Virus record (IMG/VR): IMGVR_UViG_3300009071_002768
Coordinates: 1-21,026 of that record
Length of the DNA: 21,026 nucleotides
Reading direction: 5' to 3' (one strand)
Origin: a virus
The notes beneath the pieces were generated by a model. That model saw nothing but the letters and a program-made list of their open reading frames with translations, was not told where the DNA came from and did no database searches. Shown here one piece after another: positions 15,067-20,514 of this stretch; the first letter of the stretch is position 1; every line of letters begins with the position of its first letter. A program made the position numbers and the translations under genes.

Positions 15067-15460
15067 CGGGGATGACGCCTGTGTGGCGGAGGAAGATGCG
15101 TCCTTGTATGGTGCGTATCTCAAACTCGCCGTACTCGGCTGCGTGTTCTTTAGCTTTGCGTTTTAACCGGCGCAGGGCTTTGTCTTGACGTGACTTGACG
15201 TTCTCCACTGTCATCAGTCCTTCAGGGCAGATTTCTTTCGGTAACGCTATGACGTACTCTGCTTGCGTGTCGTACACACAGATCCAGTTGTCTTCACCGT
15301 CAGGGTGGATGACGTGTTTGGCCCGTGCCATGTGGAATAGAGGCTTGTATCTGTCCCAGTGGGTTTCGTCGGGTAGTGCTGTGAACCCTTCGAAGTGGGT
15401 GAGCGCTGATTCGAGCTGCTTGTAGAATGCTCGTTGTTCTGCGGTCAGGTACCTAGCCAT
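15032..15460 (-). CDS. Hypothetical protein, last gene of replication operon
   Basis: A 142-residue protein read leftward from ATG 15460, with AGGG 8 bases upstream. Its start overlaps the RusA-like gene by 16 bases. The N-terminus is helical (LTAEQRAFYKQLESALTHFE). The middle is beta-rich with two Cys (NWICVYDTQAEYVIALPKEI). A strongly basic helix follows (RQDKALRRLKRKAKEHAAEY), and then a short beta hairpin (FEIRTIQGRIFLRHTG). The basic helix suggests nucleic-acid contact but no family is recognised. Its stop lies inside the convergent giant virion gene, so there is no room for a terminator between the two modules. Confidence 0.68.
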   Translation of the reverse strand: MARYLTAEQRAFYKQLESALTHFEGFTALPDETHWDRYKPLFHMARAKHVIHPDGEDNWICVYDTQAEYVIALPKEICPEGLMTVENVKSRQDKALRRLKRKAKEHAAEYGEFEIRTIQGRIFLRHTGVIPVSPQKPDHQKK

Positions 15461-15858
15461 ATGTTTACCCTAAGCTGTGGGGAGACGGCGTCAGGGTCGA
15501 TGCCGCCTTTGAGGAAGTTGACTCCGTATAGGTAGTCTGGGTTGTCTTCAACGAGCAGTCCGTCTAGGACCAGCCGGTCTACGATGGCTTTGATGGCCCC
15601 GTACCAGTTGCCGAGGTCGAGGTGGTGGGCGTTGGAGTGGTAGTCCATCCATGTTTCTACCCTGAATTCGCCTTCGTGGGGGGTGGCTCCGAGGTCGAGG
15701 AGTTGGGCTACTGCTTCTTCACCGTAGGTGTCTCGCCATAGTTTGGTGTCTGCTGATCGTTTGTAGCGGCCTTGTGCGCGTTCTTGGTTTAGGCTGCGTG
15801 GCTTGTCTGCCACGTCAATAGCCCAAAGTCTGGGCCACACCGCCGCTACTACAGTCAT
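15445..15858 (-). CDS. RusA-like Holliday junction resolvase
   Basis: A 137-residue protein. RusA-type endonucleases cut four-way DNA junctions and clear branched replication intermediates before packaging. Seen here: an early NQERAQGRYKRS segment with W41 (like the RusA 'N..R...R....W' start), and the key D81-x2-N84-x5-K90-x3-D94 block in DLGNWYGAIKAIVDRLVLDG. LLVEDN follows with acidic E104/D105, then a closing strand. Classical RusA has D-x-D-N; here the first position is His-Leu before D81, and D81-L-G-N replaces D-D-N spacing, so the metal site may be slightly altered. The length fits the family. ATG 15858 overlaps the previous stop as ATGA, so it is translated together with the primase-linked small gene. 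Confidence 0.68.
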   Translation of the reverse strand: MTVVAAVWPRLWAIDVADKPRSLNQERAQGRYKRSADTKLWRDTYGEEAVAQLLDLGATPHEGEFRVETWMDYHSNAHHLDLGNWYGAIKAIVDRLVLDGLLVEDNPDYLYGVNFLKGGIDPDAVSPQLRVNIWLGT

Positions 15859-16193: not shown

Positions 16194-17123
16194 TTATCCT
16201 TGGTTGTAGACTCGGTGGACTTTACTGACTGCTTCTTTGTATGGGAAGGAGGCTTTGTCTTCGGTTTGTTCTTCCCATACTTCTTGGACTACTGAGATGG
16301 CTTCGTCTCTGTCCATGCCCATGCCTTTGAGGTGGGAGGCAAGGGTGAAGAACACTAGGTCCCGCTCGCCTTTCTTAACGTCAGTTTCGCCCCTGAATAC
16401 TGACACTATGTGCGAGTTGTTCTCCCCCCTGCCTCCTGTCCTGTCTCCGTTGAAGCTCGATTGTGTGCGCTGTACCGGTTGTGGTTTCCATAGCGCTGCG
16501 AGGCGCTGCAGGGATGGGACTGGGGTGCGGTATTCTTCTGCTTGGTCTAGCCAGTCATCGATTTCTAGTGGGGTGGAGCGGTCGGCCCACATTACTTGGC
16601 GTACTGTCCCTGCGCCTGCTGCCGGGTAGGGGAGGCGGACACAGTTCCCGTAGCCTCCTGTTTCAAGGAGTTCTTGTTTGGGGTTGAGTTCAATCGCCTC
16701 GATCTCCGCTAGCTCGTGGACCCACAACCCTGCGCGTCGGGCGATGGTGCCGCTCATCCAGTCGTCTGCGAACACCCAGACGTGGTATCCCTTGGAACGG
16801 GAGGTTTCAACCCATGCTTGGATGCCGTAGTATTCCCATGCCTCGGCGTATCGCCAGGCAAGTTCTTCTGCCTCGCTGGTGTCGAAGTCGCTGCAGATCC
16901 ATTTGCATCGGTTGCCGCCTTCGAGCGGGTAGATGCCGATGGGGGTGGAGCCGTGGAGGTGGAGGTCGACTAGGCCGAACAGGTCTCCTTCTTCAAGTTT
17001 TTCTTGGTGAGGGTGGGGTTGGTCAAGGAACGCTACGTCTTCCCGGCCTTCGAATAGTTCGTAGAACAGGTCTGTTCGTTCGGCCTGGATGGCTTCACTC
17101 ATCTCGTCGGTCACTAGCCTCAT
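16194..17123 (-). CDS. Archaeo-eukaryotic-type DNA primase (AEP/PrimPol-like)
   Basis: A 309-residue protein. ATG 17123 is chosen because TAATG couples it to the helicase stop and AGGAGG lies 9 bases upstream; an open frame extends to 17243 but runs inside the helicase gene. The AEP core is visible. CKWICSDFD gives the catalytic D79-x-D81. ETSRSKGYHVWVF gives S108/H114, the 'S-x-s-kGyH' nucleotide-binding motif. NPKQELLETGGYGNCVRLP gives the third motif with K149 and the GN-x-x-x-LP end. This arrangement resembles the TOTE/CRISPR-associated branch of AEPs. The last 75 residues (GERDLVFFTLASHLKGMGM and then FPYKEAVSKVHRVY) look like a PriCT-type C-terminal helical domain that links primase to helicase. 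It would make primers, and possibly short DNA, for the adjacent helicase. No separate DNA polymerase is in the window. Confidence 0.78.
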   Translation of the reverse strand: MRLVTDEMSEAIQAERTDLFYELFEGREDVAFLDQPHPHQEKLEEGDLFGLVDLHLHGSTPIGIYPLEGGNRCKWICSDFDTSEAEELAWRYAEAWEYYGIQAWVETSRSKGYHVWVFADDWMSGTIARRAGLWVHELAEIEAIELNPKQELLETGGYGNCVRLPYPAAGAGTVRQVMWADRSTPLEIDDWLDQAEEYRTPVPSLQRLAALWKPQPVQRTQSSFNGDRTGGRGENNSHIVSVFRGETDVKKGERDLVFFTLASHLKGMGMDRDEAISVVQEVWEEQTEDKASFPYKEAVSKVHRVYNQG

Positions 17124-18097
17124 TACCTGTAGCCTCCTGGCCTTACGTCTCTGATCCCTGAAAGTAGCAGGTCTCCTGGCTTGATGGGCCGCACAAGCCC
17201 TGACTCTTTGGTGATGGCGTATTGTACTTCGTGGCCTTGCCACTTGCCGTCGAGGTAATTGTAGGTCTGTTTGTTTTTGATCATGCCTACGGTGAGGAGG
17301 GGCTGGTGTTCTTCCTGCATCTGGTCTCGTGTGGTCATGCTTGGGTCTGACGGTTGTGGTCGTCGGACTGTGAGGATGGTCACGGCCTGCTGTTCACCGC
17401 CGTATGAAAGGGATGAGGCTGAGAGTTGCCCGCCTTTCGATGCCGAACGGTTGGCCTGGTGCAGCATCAGCCACGGTATGCGGGTGTCTCTGGCCAGGTC
17501 TTTCGCCACGTTCGCTGCCTTCTGCATCGACCCTCCGAAGTCTTCCCCTCGTGAGCTGGCCAAATACCCCATGTAGTCGTAAGCGGCCATCTTTATTTTC
17601 TGTTGCCAAAACTGCTCTGCCTCTTGGATGTAGGTGATCATGTCGTATTTGGATCGCTTCTCATCATCGATCGCTAGGAGGGGGAACCACTCGGTGATGA
17701 TCCCTCGTTTCCAACTGGCGCTCATGCCAAGGATTTCGGTGAGGGGGGTTTCGGTTACGAGCGAGATGAGTTTGAACATGACTTGCTCGGCGTCTTCGTC
17801 TGGCGAGAACAGGATCATTGGCTTGTCCCTGTTCTCATGCAGGAGCCGCAGTAGGAGCTGGGTTTTGCCGTTGTGTTGGAACCCTACGAGCAGGTGGAGT
17901 CCGGCCCTGAGGCCACCTCCAAGGGCCGTGTCGATTTCGGGTAGCCCAAACGGTATGGGCGGGGTGAGATCGGGGTCGTTCAGCAGGGAGGCTGATGGGC
18001 GGAACAGCCAGCCTGACCTCTCGGCCAAGAGTGCGGCTTCCCGCTCCTCAAGGCCAAGAGAAGGTGTTTCTGTTTCTTGTTGTAACTCGATGCTCAT
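17123..18097 (-). CDS. DnaB-like replicative helicase (RecA-fold ATPase domain only)
   Basis: A 324-residue protein from ATG 18097 with AGGAAGA just upstream and an ATGA overlap with the preceding gene. Motifs: FGLPEIDTALGGGLRAGLH precedes the Walker A G72-FQHN-GKT79. SPDEDAEQVMFKLIS is a DnaB-like 'E.s..q...Rl.s' equivalent. Walker B sits at KMAAYDYMGYL with D174. The sensor-type histidine/glutamine lies in PWLMLHQANR (H213, Q214), and a C-terminal strand region with TVGMIKNKQ. The 'GLP..D..LGGGL..G....' entry is shared by DnaB, RadA/Sms and KaiC-type ATPases. The gene order, followed directly by the primase, favours a replicative helicase. The protein lacks the DnaB N-terminal domain, and the first 45 residues are short and low in motifs. 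A RadA-like recombinase is the alternative. Confidence 0.75.
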   Translation of the reverse strand: MSIELQQETETPSLGLEEREAALLAERSGWLFRPSASLLNDPDLTPPIPFGLPEIDTALGGGLRAGLHLLVGFQHNGKTQLLLRLLHENRDKPMILFSPDEDAEQVMFKLISLVTETPLTEILGMSASWKRGIITEWFPLLAIDDEKRSKYDMITYIQEAEQFWQQKIKMAAYDYMGYLASSRGEDFGGSMQKAANVAKDLARDTRIPWLMLHQANRSASKGGQLSASSLSYGGEQQAVTILTVRRPQPSDPSMTTRDQMQEEHQPLLTVGMIKNKQTYNYLDGKWQGHEVQYAITKESGLVRPIKPGDLLLSGIRDVRPGGYR

Positions 18098-18360
18098 TCT
18101 TCTTCCTTGTCAGCGGGCAAGTACTGCCATGCGTGGATGGTTCTTGCCGTGTGGCGGAGTTGGGCTGCAAGAATTTCGCAGTCGTACAAGATGGTTTCCC
18201 TGTACTTCTCCCAGATTGCTTCCTGTTCGGGGTGGCGTCTGGTGTTGAAGTCGGTTAAGAAGTCGACAACCAAGTCAGCGATGATGTCTGCTGTCGGTAG
18301 TACAGGGTTGGGCGCAAGTTGTAGTGTGTATGTCCTCCCTCCTATCTGCAATGGTTCCAC
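18094..18360 (-). CDS. Small hypothetical protein before helicase
   Basis: An 88-residue protein if read from GTG 18360, which lies two bases after the preceding stop and 7 bases after a GGAAC sequence. An ATG at 18405 is in frame but has no ribosome site and would overlap the upstream gene by 43 bases. By inspection there is a beta start (LQIGGRTYTLQLAPNPVLP) and then helices with Trp, Tyr and Arg (EAIWEKYRETILYDCEILAA and HTARTIHAWQYL). The stop overlaps the helicase ATG as ATGA. Its location suggests a helicase-loading or accessory role, but no family is recognised and that role is only inferred. Confidence 0.6.
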   Translation of the reverse strand: MEPLQIGGRTYTLQLAPNPVLPTADIIADLVVDFLTDFNTRRHPEQEAIWEKYRETILYDCEILAAQLRHTARTIHAWQYLPADKEEE

Positions 18361-18362
18361 AG

Positions 18363-19088
18363 TTAAAGTTCCACGCCGAACTGGGCGCAGTATTTGTCGG
18401 GGCATGCGTTGAGCCAGAGTGCTTTCGCTTCCTTCTTCTCTTCGGGGGATGCGTTGCGGTCCACCTTCATCTTGAAGTCGGGTGCGTTAGGGTTGGTTTT
18501 GCCTGCACGGTTGTCCCAGAACTTGGACGGGTCTGCTACGAGCATGTCCCAGTACTGGAGGTCGTTACCTGAAGGGGTCTTGTTGCGGCGGATGCCTCCT
18601 GGGCTGGCGGTGGGGGCACCGGCGAACCCCCCGGTTGACGGGGCAGGCATCTGGGTGGGTGCAGGCATTTGTGCTGGCGCAGCGGTTGACGCTACGACCA
18701 TCACTTCGTTCTCACCGAATACCTCTTGCACCATCCGCTCGTTCTCGGAAAGCTCGAATGGCAGGTTCTGCTGTGAGAGGACGGCTGCTTTCACGAGCAT
18801 CATCTCGTTCTCGTAGACGCTCATGGCTTCTTCGAGCGTGCAGTTGGCTGGCAGGTCTGCTTCCATGGTGGCCGACACGGTGGCAGGTTCAAACTGGCGG
18901 GCCTGCACTGTGCGTGAGTAGCTGATGATCAGCTTGCGCTTGACGGGTTCAACAAACTGGGTCTGCTGCTGTGGTGCGTATTGTTCTTGGGTGTCGTAAC
19001 TCATATTTTTGCTTTCTGTTTGGTGTTCGCCTGGCCGGAGTGGCCCGGTGTCTACTTTTTGGTTGAAGAAATCGTCTGCGTCGCTCAT
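18363..19088 (-). CDS. ssDNA-binding-type protein with a PDF motif
   Basis: A 241-residue protein. ATG 19088 overlaps the preceding stop as ATGA and has AGGA 10 bases upstream (19098-19101); a second in-frame ATG at 19004 would remove 28 polar residues. Residues about 49-110 look like a compact beta/alpha domain starting KRKLIISYSRTVQARQFEP, similar to N-terminal domains of phage proteins in replication modules. A linker with the repeat AQMPAP/TQMPAP follows at 139-150. Residues about 175-230 contain YWDMLVADPSKFWDNR, then NPNAPDFKMK, then ALWL. This closely follows the 'PDF motif' (W..l..dP..wwDNR..K.nP.aPdFKhK....aLWL) that binds single-stranded DNA in plant organellar OSB proteins. It also resembles the Cys-containing 'WDNR...PDF.Ck' tails of phage proteins; here the zinc cysteines are absent. 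It probably coats ssDNA for the primase, helicase and nuclease of the operon. Confidence 0.62.
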   Translation of the reverse strand: MSDADDFFNQKVDTGPLRPGEHQTESKNMSYDTQEQYAPQQQTQFVEPVKRKLIISYSRTVQARQFEPATVSATMEADLPANCTLEEAMSVYENEMMLVKAAVLSQQNLPFELSENERMVQEVFGENEVMVVASTAAPAQMPAPTQMPAPSTGGFAGAPTASPGGIRRNKTPSGNDLQYWDMLVADPSKFWDNRAGKTNPNAPDFKMKVDRNASPEEKKEAKALWLNACPDKYCAQFGVEL

Positions 19089-19309
19089 CCCATTAGTCCT
19101 AGCCAGTCGCATTCGGGGTCATGCCAGTCCCAGTTGTCTTCGCTCAAGACTGTCGGGGAGATCATGCCGCACCACAAGCATCGCGAGTGGGTGGCTTTGA
19201 TGCGTGGGTCTTCGGGCAGCAGCCCTTGGACTAAAGACTCTAGACGGTCCAGCCTTTTTTGCATCGATTTGGTGGTGTCAGTTGTGTCACTGCTGGTTGG
19301 GCTAATCAT
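19085..19309 (-). CDS. CxxC...HxxxC zinc-binding-like mini-protein
   Basis: A 74-residue protein from ATG 19309, with AAAGG 7 bases upstream and an 8-base overlap (ATGATTAG) with the WhiB gene. Residues 14-31 are a short coiled coil (KSMQKRLDRLESLVQGLL). Then come C44-x2-C47-x15-H63-x3-C67 around CLWCGM and WHDPECDWL, suggesting one zinc site. No named family is recognised. The coiled coil suggests a dimer or a docking helix. Being wedged between WhiB and the ssDNA-binding-type gene, it could be a small regulator or a replication adaptor. Its stop overlaps the next ATG (ATGA). Confidence 0.66.
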   Translation of the reverse strand: MISPTSSDTTDTTKSMQKRLDRLESLVQGLLPEDPRIKATHSRCLWCGMISPTVLSEDNWDWHDPECDWLGLMG

Positions 19310-19577
19310 TGGCGTGCCTTTCTCTATGTTCGCTGATGCGTTGGCGTTGGGTTGTCCCGCCCCAGACTCCTTGGTACATGTCTAGGTTGGAGTCGGCTTC
19401 CCGCCTGCACTCGGCTTTAACTTTGCATGTGTTGCAGACTGCAACGGCGAAGGTGGGTTTTTTGTGCGGCGGGTCTGGGAAGAACACTTCGATGTCCATG
19501 CCCAGGCATGCGGCTTTCTCCCGCCATAACGGTTTAGCTGCCACAAGTTTTTCGTATAGGCCCCTGATGTCACTCAT
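19302..19577 (-). CDS. whiB: WhiB-family [4Fe-4S] transcription factor
   Basis: A 91-residue protein with all the WhiB hallmarks. W18 precedes AACLGMD with C24, FFP sits at 32-34, and C48-NT-C51-KVKAE-C57 completes the four cluster cysteines. G70-VWGGTT is the signature turn that contacts the primary sigma factor, and a basic Arg-rich tail (QRQRISEHRERH) can contact DNA. WhiB proteins occur only in Actinobacteria and their phages, which makes this the strongest host indicator in the window. Phage members such as mycobacteriophage TM4 WhiB can interfere with host WhiB function; whether this one redirects host RNA polymerase or represses host genes is inference. The start overlaps the upstream nuclease stop by 8 bases (ATGAGTGA), with GGAG upstream, so both are made from the same transcript. 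Confidence 0.92.
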   Translation of the reverse strand: MSDIRGLYEKLVAAKPLWREKAACLGMDIEVFFPDPPHKKPTFAVAVCNTCKVKAECRREADSNLDMYQGVWGGTTQRQRISEHRERHAND

Positions 19578-20514
19578 CGGGGTGGTGCTCCGTTGGTGCA
19601 GCCACTAGCCCTGCGTCGACCTTGCGTTTCAGTTCGACAAGCACGGAGGGTTCGTCTGGCCAGAAAGAGTCTTCGTGACTGCCCCGGCATTTGCCGAGAG
19701 CGAACTCGCTGCACCAGCGTGGGCTGCAGTGCCAGTCATCTGGGCCTAGGGGCCACGTACTGGCCGTGCCAAGCTTGAGGATGGTGTTGCCCCATGATTG
19801 TACTTCGGCGAGCATCATGGCCCATTTCTGTTGGCCTAGGGTCATGCCCCAAGTGTTGACACCGGCCTTGCCTCGGGGCACGTAACCGAAGTTGAAGCCG
19901 ACAGCCGCTAAGCCCAGCTCTAGGTGCTTGGCGTACGTGTAGATGGGTGCTTGGATGTCGTAGCGGGATTTCTTCCAGCCGTCTCTGGAATCAAAGCGTC
20001 CTGTCTTCCAGTCCCAGATGGTTCCGTTGCCGTCGTAGAAGTCGATGCTTCCTCGCAGTCTTATCTGGTCGCCGTCTATCGAAGAGACTGGGATGTCGAA
20101 TCGTTTCTCGATCTCCCAGCCTGCAGTGTTGGTCTGGTCGAGGCTTGGAATCATTTCGTTGTACCAGCGCTGGCAGCAATCTTCAAGTTCTCTGACGGCG
20201 GTGTAGAGATCTTCGACCATGTGGGGGTGGAGCCACATGGATGGCCAGGCTTCTTCAAGCAGGGTGACTTCTTGTGCGAGCTGGTCGAGGAGGGGCTGGC
20301 CTGAGGGCCATTCACCGTGGTCTTGCCTGTGGTGGAGGCACCATTCGATGAACGAGTGGGTGCGTGTGCCGATGGCGGCTACGTCAGAGTCAGGGTCAAA
20401 GTATTCGCCGGTGAGCTTTAGCCGGGCCTGTTCGGGGCACATGCGTAGTGTGCCGATGTCTGACTGGTGGAGGTACAGAGTTCTGTGCCCGTGGTCGTCG
20501 GTGAGGAGTTTCAT
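19570..20514 (-). CDS. Cas4/RecB-like PD-(D/E)XK nuclease with Fe-S-type cysteines
   Basis: A 314-residue protein, first gene of the leftward operon. Seen in order: LHQSDIGTLRMCP with C26, G49-TRTH53 (the RecB-family 'iG...H' motif), and RGSIDFY with D158. WDWKTGR follows with D168 and K170, the D...DxK catalytic core. Then comes Q188-APIYTY (the 'QxxxY' motif), and a terminal cysteine group C263, C268, C276 in WHCSPRWCSEFALGKC. One early and three late cysteines are the pattern that holds a 4Fe-4S cluster in Cas4, AddB and Dna2-type nucleases. Expected activity is on DNA ends or ssDNA, for recombination, end processing or degradation of host DNA. There is no CRISPR array or other cas gene nearby, so an adaptation role is not implied. 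ATG 20514 has only a weak GAAAG site; the leader upstream is rich in inverted repeats. Confidence 0.82.
   Translation of the reverse strand: MKLLTDDHGHRTLYLHQSDIGTLRMCPEQARLKLTGEYFDPDSDVAAIGTRTHSFIEWCLHHRQDHGEWPSGQPLLDQLAQEVTLLEEAWPSMWLHPHMVEDLYTAVRELEDCCQRWYNEMIPSLDQTNTAGWEIEKRFDIPVSSIDGDQIRLRGSIDFYDGNGTIWDWKTGRFDSRDGWKKSRYDIQAPIYTYAKHLELGLAAVGFNFGYVPRGKAGVNTWGMTLGQQKWAMMLAEVQSWGNTILKLGTASTWPLGPDDWHCSPRWCSEFALGKCRGSHEDSFWPDEPSVLVELKRKVDAGLVAAPTEHHPDE

Follow-up and report, generated by a model that had tools for sequence, protein, structure and literature searches.

Does a phage gene whose product ends in a block that may resemble the PDF motif of plant organellar OSB proteins encode a single-stranded DNA (ssDNA) binding protein, and what is this block related to? 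We analyzed the gene, P0001, in a stretch of 21,026 nucleotides (the window) from the IMG/VR virus record IMGVR_UViG_3300009071_002768. A first-pass annotation had proposed that P0001 may be the SSB of the phage and had asked whether plant PDF motifs have a phage-related origin.

The P0001 gene and its domain layout

The open reading frame at 18363–19088 lies on the minus strand, encodes 241 residues and carries the C-terminus that the first-pass annotation had quoted. It starts with an ATG at 19088 that shares bases with the stop of an upstream 74-residue ORF (ATGA). Against a 55% identical relative on contig L012, dN was 0.39 and dS 1.24 over the whole protein; for residues 188–228 we obtained a dN of 0.22 and a dS of 1.50, i.e., a dN/dS of about 0.15. 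From these values we conclude that P0001 is a real gene under purifying selection, with the tightest constraint in its C-terminal WDNR-PDF block. Given the conservation of the minus-strand protein and the purifying selection on it, an opposite-strand ORF at 18394–18816 (plus) was taken as a shadow ORF.

P0001 had no match in a Pfam search, and an annealase domain of the Erf, RecT or Rad52 type was absent by both Pfam and PHROG. PDB sequence searches matched nothing, and tblastn against cultured phages, with the whole protein or the tail alone, gave no relevant match.

The protein consists of an N-terminal beta/alpha domain, a Pro/Ala/Met linker and the WDNR-PDF block, as the first-pass annotation had described. 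For the N-terminal domain (residues 51–124; 18717–18938, minus), AlphaFold models of P0001 and of the L012 relative predicted a strand-strand-helix arrangement, with pLDDT values of about 57–69 and about 77–84, respectively. It is followed by an extra strand in the P0001 model and by a helix instead in the L012 model. Both models were built on one common sequence set and are hence incompletely independent; the input alignment for P0001, whose model has a mean pLDDT of 60, held four zinc-less proteins and trimmed zinc-form fragments. It had been suggested to look for an OB fold in this region. Neither model, both of modest confidence, contains one, and the prediction is beta-beta-alpha instead. 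No structural hit from Foldseek fell below E 0.001, leaving the N-terminal domain without a significant fold match, and its sequence weakly matches phrog_13442 (E=0.0014 and 0.0043).

The linker (residues 131–165; 18594–18698, minus) is of low complexity and has no charged residue; residues 125–164 have a pLDDT below 50 in the P0001 model. The WDNR-PDF block follows at residues 178–227 (18408–18557, minus), with WDNRAGKTNPNAPDFKMK...ALWL at residues 191–226. A WDNR-x8-PDF DNA pattern matched the window once and none of 100 shuffled versions. Over most of its length the block is modeled with a pLDDT of about 80–89, with a helix at 174–185, strands at 190–192 and 205–207 and further short helices. 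Its charge is near neutral (9 K/R, 8 D/E), and it is free of cysteines, as had been claimed for the core. Cysteines elsewhere in the protein are C83, C229 and C234, all three conserved in the L012 relative and across the four zinc-less proteins. The latter two belong to a C-terminal tail (CPDxxC...FGV; 18366–18404, minus) that is conserved in all four zinc-less relatives. P0001 ends in CAQFGVEL, i.e., an acidic SSB-type C-terminal tip is absent.

The relative on contig L002 (L002:5627-6574, plus) has an N-terminal insertion of 74 residues with two copies of the motif VxTGPLxPGEyQ; the window and L012 proteins have one copy, at their start.

Kinship with four-cysteine phage tails

The first-pass annotation had stated that related phage tails exist which carry cysteines, and this was borne out in IMG/VR. 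A DNA pattern scan for WDNR-x8-PDF matched 72 contigs, of which three (L006, L050 and L074) were chance matches by inspection. Among 56 distinct domain sequences, 52 have PDFxC within a CxxC-WDNR..K..PDFxC..C arrangement, a predicted zinc ribbon. The PDFxC cysteine is missing only in the window, L041, L048 and L012, where L041 and L048 come from other parts of the contigs that also hold L001 and L002. The search pattern fixed only W-D-N-R and P-D-F; nevertheless, K197, K206 and W225, which lie outside it, are invariant or nearly so across the zinc and zinc-less forms.

Profile comparison of the block with the phage zinc tails, as had been proposed, gave a clear match. With hhalign, the zinc-less block aligned to 18 zinc-form tails with a probability of 97.7 (P 1.6e-12; 46% identity over 35 columns). 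In hmmsearch, the zinc-form profile scored 26.7 bits on the window ORF, and the best of 10,000 shuffles reached 11.0. Searched against the whole record, zinc-form profile A3 matched the block with E=5.8e-8 (27.9 bits); the top-scoring stretch was the block core SKFWDNRAGKTNPNAPDFKMK (18465–18527, minus). Judged by these profiles, the P0001 block is homologous to the four-cysteine phage tails, and these, not plant proteins, are its closest computable relatives.

Both forms have in common the WDNR-x8-PDF[K/R] core, an invariant lysine and a following tryptophan. The four-cysteine tail of phage Erf, Rad52 and RecT proteins likewise stands C-terminally after a Pro/Ala-rich linker and in a DNA recombination setting. 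In contrast to it, the P0001 block lacks all four cysteines and has a helical insert between PDFK and ALWL; moreover, the N-terminal domain of P0001 is a different one, and the acidic SSB-like tip is missing.

We further analyzed to which proteins the zinc-form tails are attached. By Pfam, with PHROGs in agreement, an Erf domain is present in 10 of 28 zinc-form representatives and a Rad52 domain in one; the N-termini of the others have no Pfam match. P0001 has no such domain, although attachment to one is found in only 11 of the 28. L021, a zinc-form protein, is similar to a phage protein that bears the annotation DNA repair and recombination. In plasmids, a search with the tail alone yielded a Gemmatirosa kalamazoonensis protein (L083:3134-4474, plus; 446 residues) that joins a RecT domain (E=2.5e-29) to a WDNR-PDF tail with four cysteines and terminates in DDDIPF. 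As far as sequence tells, one tail occurs on three annealing-protein families, i.e., Erf, Rad52 and RecT. Pfam and NCBIfam yielded no name or match for it.

An SSB-like acidic tip, by a strict pattern, forms the C-terminus of 15 of 36 proteins. DDDIPF and its variants end many zinc-form proteins, above all those of the Erf type (L004, L008, L014, L026, L039, L059 and others).

Two phage proteins of 137 and 140 residues (L019 and L070) are parallel in layout. Like P0001, they have a short N-terminal segment, a linker and a C-terminal WDNR-PDF tail but no recognized annealase domain; unlike P0001, they keep the cysteine ligands. An N-terminal homology with P0001 was considered, and the alignment was not convincing.

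In IMG/VR, only the window and three contigs related to it yielded the zinc-less form. Relaxed patterns that excluded the third cysteine gave the three contigs already known and nothing further, and pattern scans of GTDB genomes found no zinc-less relative; these patterns are tied to exact codon choices and spacing, and rarer variants may escape them. The simplest reading would be that zinc was lost in one phage lineage, a direction of change that we infer.

Operon context and proposed function

P0001 lies in a recombination/replication operon, which the first-pass annotation had described as a replication operon. The same operon encodes a 314-residue exonuclease (19570–20514, minus; phrog_69, E=7.3e-14), a DnaB-like helicase (17123–18097, minus; phrog_19, E=2.2e-16), a primase or PrimPol-like protein (16194–17243, minus; phrog_5362, E=2.4e-8; NF040561, below its cut-off with E=4.4e-14; PDLC01465, E=2.7e-18) and a RusA-like Holliday junction resolvase (15445–15858, minus; phrog_34, E=2.3e-7). 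A 103-residue protein of the operon (18094–18405, minus) overlaps the end of P0001 downstream and has no family match; L012 has a similar ORF in the same position.

The primase resembles the CRISPR-associated PrimPol models NF040561 and PDLC01465. In the same operon, upstream of P0001, the 74-residue ORF (19085–19309, minus) has a C-x-x-C pair, a later H/C region and no family match, and is possibly a small zinc finger. The adjacent WhiB-like protein of the operon (19302–19577, minus; phrog_472, E=2.1e-17) suggests an actinobacterial host. Proteins of 191 and 182 residues are conserved in two relatives (38-kb L002 contig, 34386-34961, plus; L012:6923-7471, minus); by eye they look like a sliding clamp and have no PHROG match.

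The window has no SSB family match, in line with the earlier statement that the operon has no recognized OB-fold SSB. SSB was likewise found in none of the three relatives' contigs (20, 38 and 39 kb), and Erf and RecT neither in the window nor in these contigs. Two sub-threshold Rad52 matches (11.9 bits) in the window and these contigs lie in a stop-containing frame and were regarded as chance. The contigs have no terminal repeats that would establish the genomes as complete; on inspection, the two ends of the 39-kb contig show a gene order that would fit circular permutation.

The annealing proteins Erf, RecT and Rad52 act on ssDNA. Because the tail recurs on these three families, it most likely helps in ssDNA handling, which makes an ssDNA role of P0001 plausible as well. 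P0001 has the tail in its zinc-less form and on a different N-terminal domain, and its operon includes an exonuclease but no recognized annealase or SSB. For these reasons our main reading, to which we assign a probability of roughly one half, is that P0001, as part of the phage recombination/replication operon, binds ssDNA in an accessory role, possibly annealing strands, and does so with a zinc-less derivative of the annealase tail.

According to this proposal, the block would derive from a small ssDNA-interaction tail, the four-cysteine zinc ribbon on Erf, Rad52 and RecT proteins of other phages. In the window lineage the four ligands would have been lost, with a helix (YWDMLVADPS) in place of the CxxC and a helical insert (ASPEEKKEAK) parting PDFK from ALWL, while the WDNR/K/PDFK/W core is retained. 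The N-terminal beta-beta-alpha domain would probably serve oligomerization or partner contact, and the putative flexible linker would join it to the block. P0001 may supply an SSB or annealase function beside the exonuclease. On the other hand, these genomes could encode an SSB or annealase of an unrecognized family at another place, and the phage may get by with the SSB of its host.

Plant PDF motifs and alternative roles of the block

The plant motif, which we take to be W..WDNR..K.NP..PDFK.K..ALWL, fits the window block. By this motif only, plant OSBs would resemble P0001 in the WDNR/PDFK/ALW spacing, in having no cysteines and in the position of the motif C-terminal to an N-terminal domain. 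The OSB PDF motif comprises about 50 residues, lies C-terminal to an SSB-like degenerate OB domain, suffices on its own for ssDNA binding in AtOSB1 and has been reported from green plants only; OSBs combine the OB-like SSB domain with one to three PDF motifs (PMC6963530; PMC4166229). In P0001, by contrast, a predicted beta-beta-alpha domain precedes a single block, and an OB-like SSB domain was not found.

It is possible, although we hold it only tentatively, that the block shares true homology with the plant PDF motif and that OSBs inherited the mini-domain from an annealing protein of phage or bacterial origin, both forms being zinc-less. The fit of the motif, the published size and ssDNA binding of the PDF motif and the occurrence of the phage tails on ssDNA annealing proteins speak for this, whereas the confinement of the zinc-less pattern to known contigs and the N-terminal domain, not predicted as an OB fold, speak against it. 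Such a homology concerns origin and is compatible with an accessory ssDNA-binding role. Because the zinc-less state is a narrow exception, on four contigs, in a broad zinc-bearing phage family, the resemblance to the zinc-less plant form may also be parallel loss. We treat the plant link as no more than a lead, one that is more aptly framed around the annealase zinc ribbon. The right comparison is between OSB PDF motifs and the annealase zinc-ribbon family, beyond the window block alone.

The ribbon could also contact protein rather than ssDNA. Then the block would be an interaction module, e.g., for a helicase, an exonuclease or host factors, in P0001 and in the annealing proteins alike. The near-neutral charge of the block would fit this, as would the acidic tip of 15 of the 36 zinc-form proteins, a likely partner-recruiting signal that such tails already carry. 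However, P0001 has no such tip, which in the other proteins lies apart from the ribbon, and the invariant aromatic and basic residues W191, R194, K197, F205 and W225 are, as we infer, of the kind that contacts nucleic acid. We consider an interaction module unlikely. Quite improbable is that P0001 is the main SSB of the phage, coating ssDNA at the fork: its operon position and the lack of an SSB family match in the window and the related 38-39 kb contigs would agree, but P0001 has neither the OB fold or Pfam SSB match nor the acidic C-terminal tip of bacterial-type SSB (PF00436), the contigs are not proven complete, and many phages rely on the host SSB.

A tail type that recurs on three annealing-protein families, and that neither Pfam nor NCBIfam matches, suggests a module of general help in ssDNA handling. 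A lineage that has the core but no zinc ligands shows which residues remain important when metal is absent. Plant PDF motifs and the phage block might be branches of one mini-domain, originally the zinc-ribbon tail of phage or bacterial annealing proteins, a view that we rate as possible rather than probable. If so, the window lineage shows that the mini-domain can persist without zinc, as in plants, and homology of the plant PDF motifs, if borne out, would make it testable where this ssDNA-binding element of plant organelles, specific to plants, came from.
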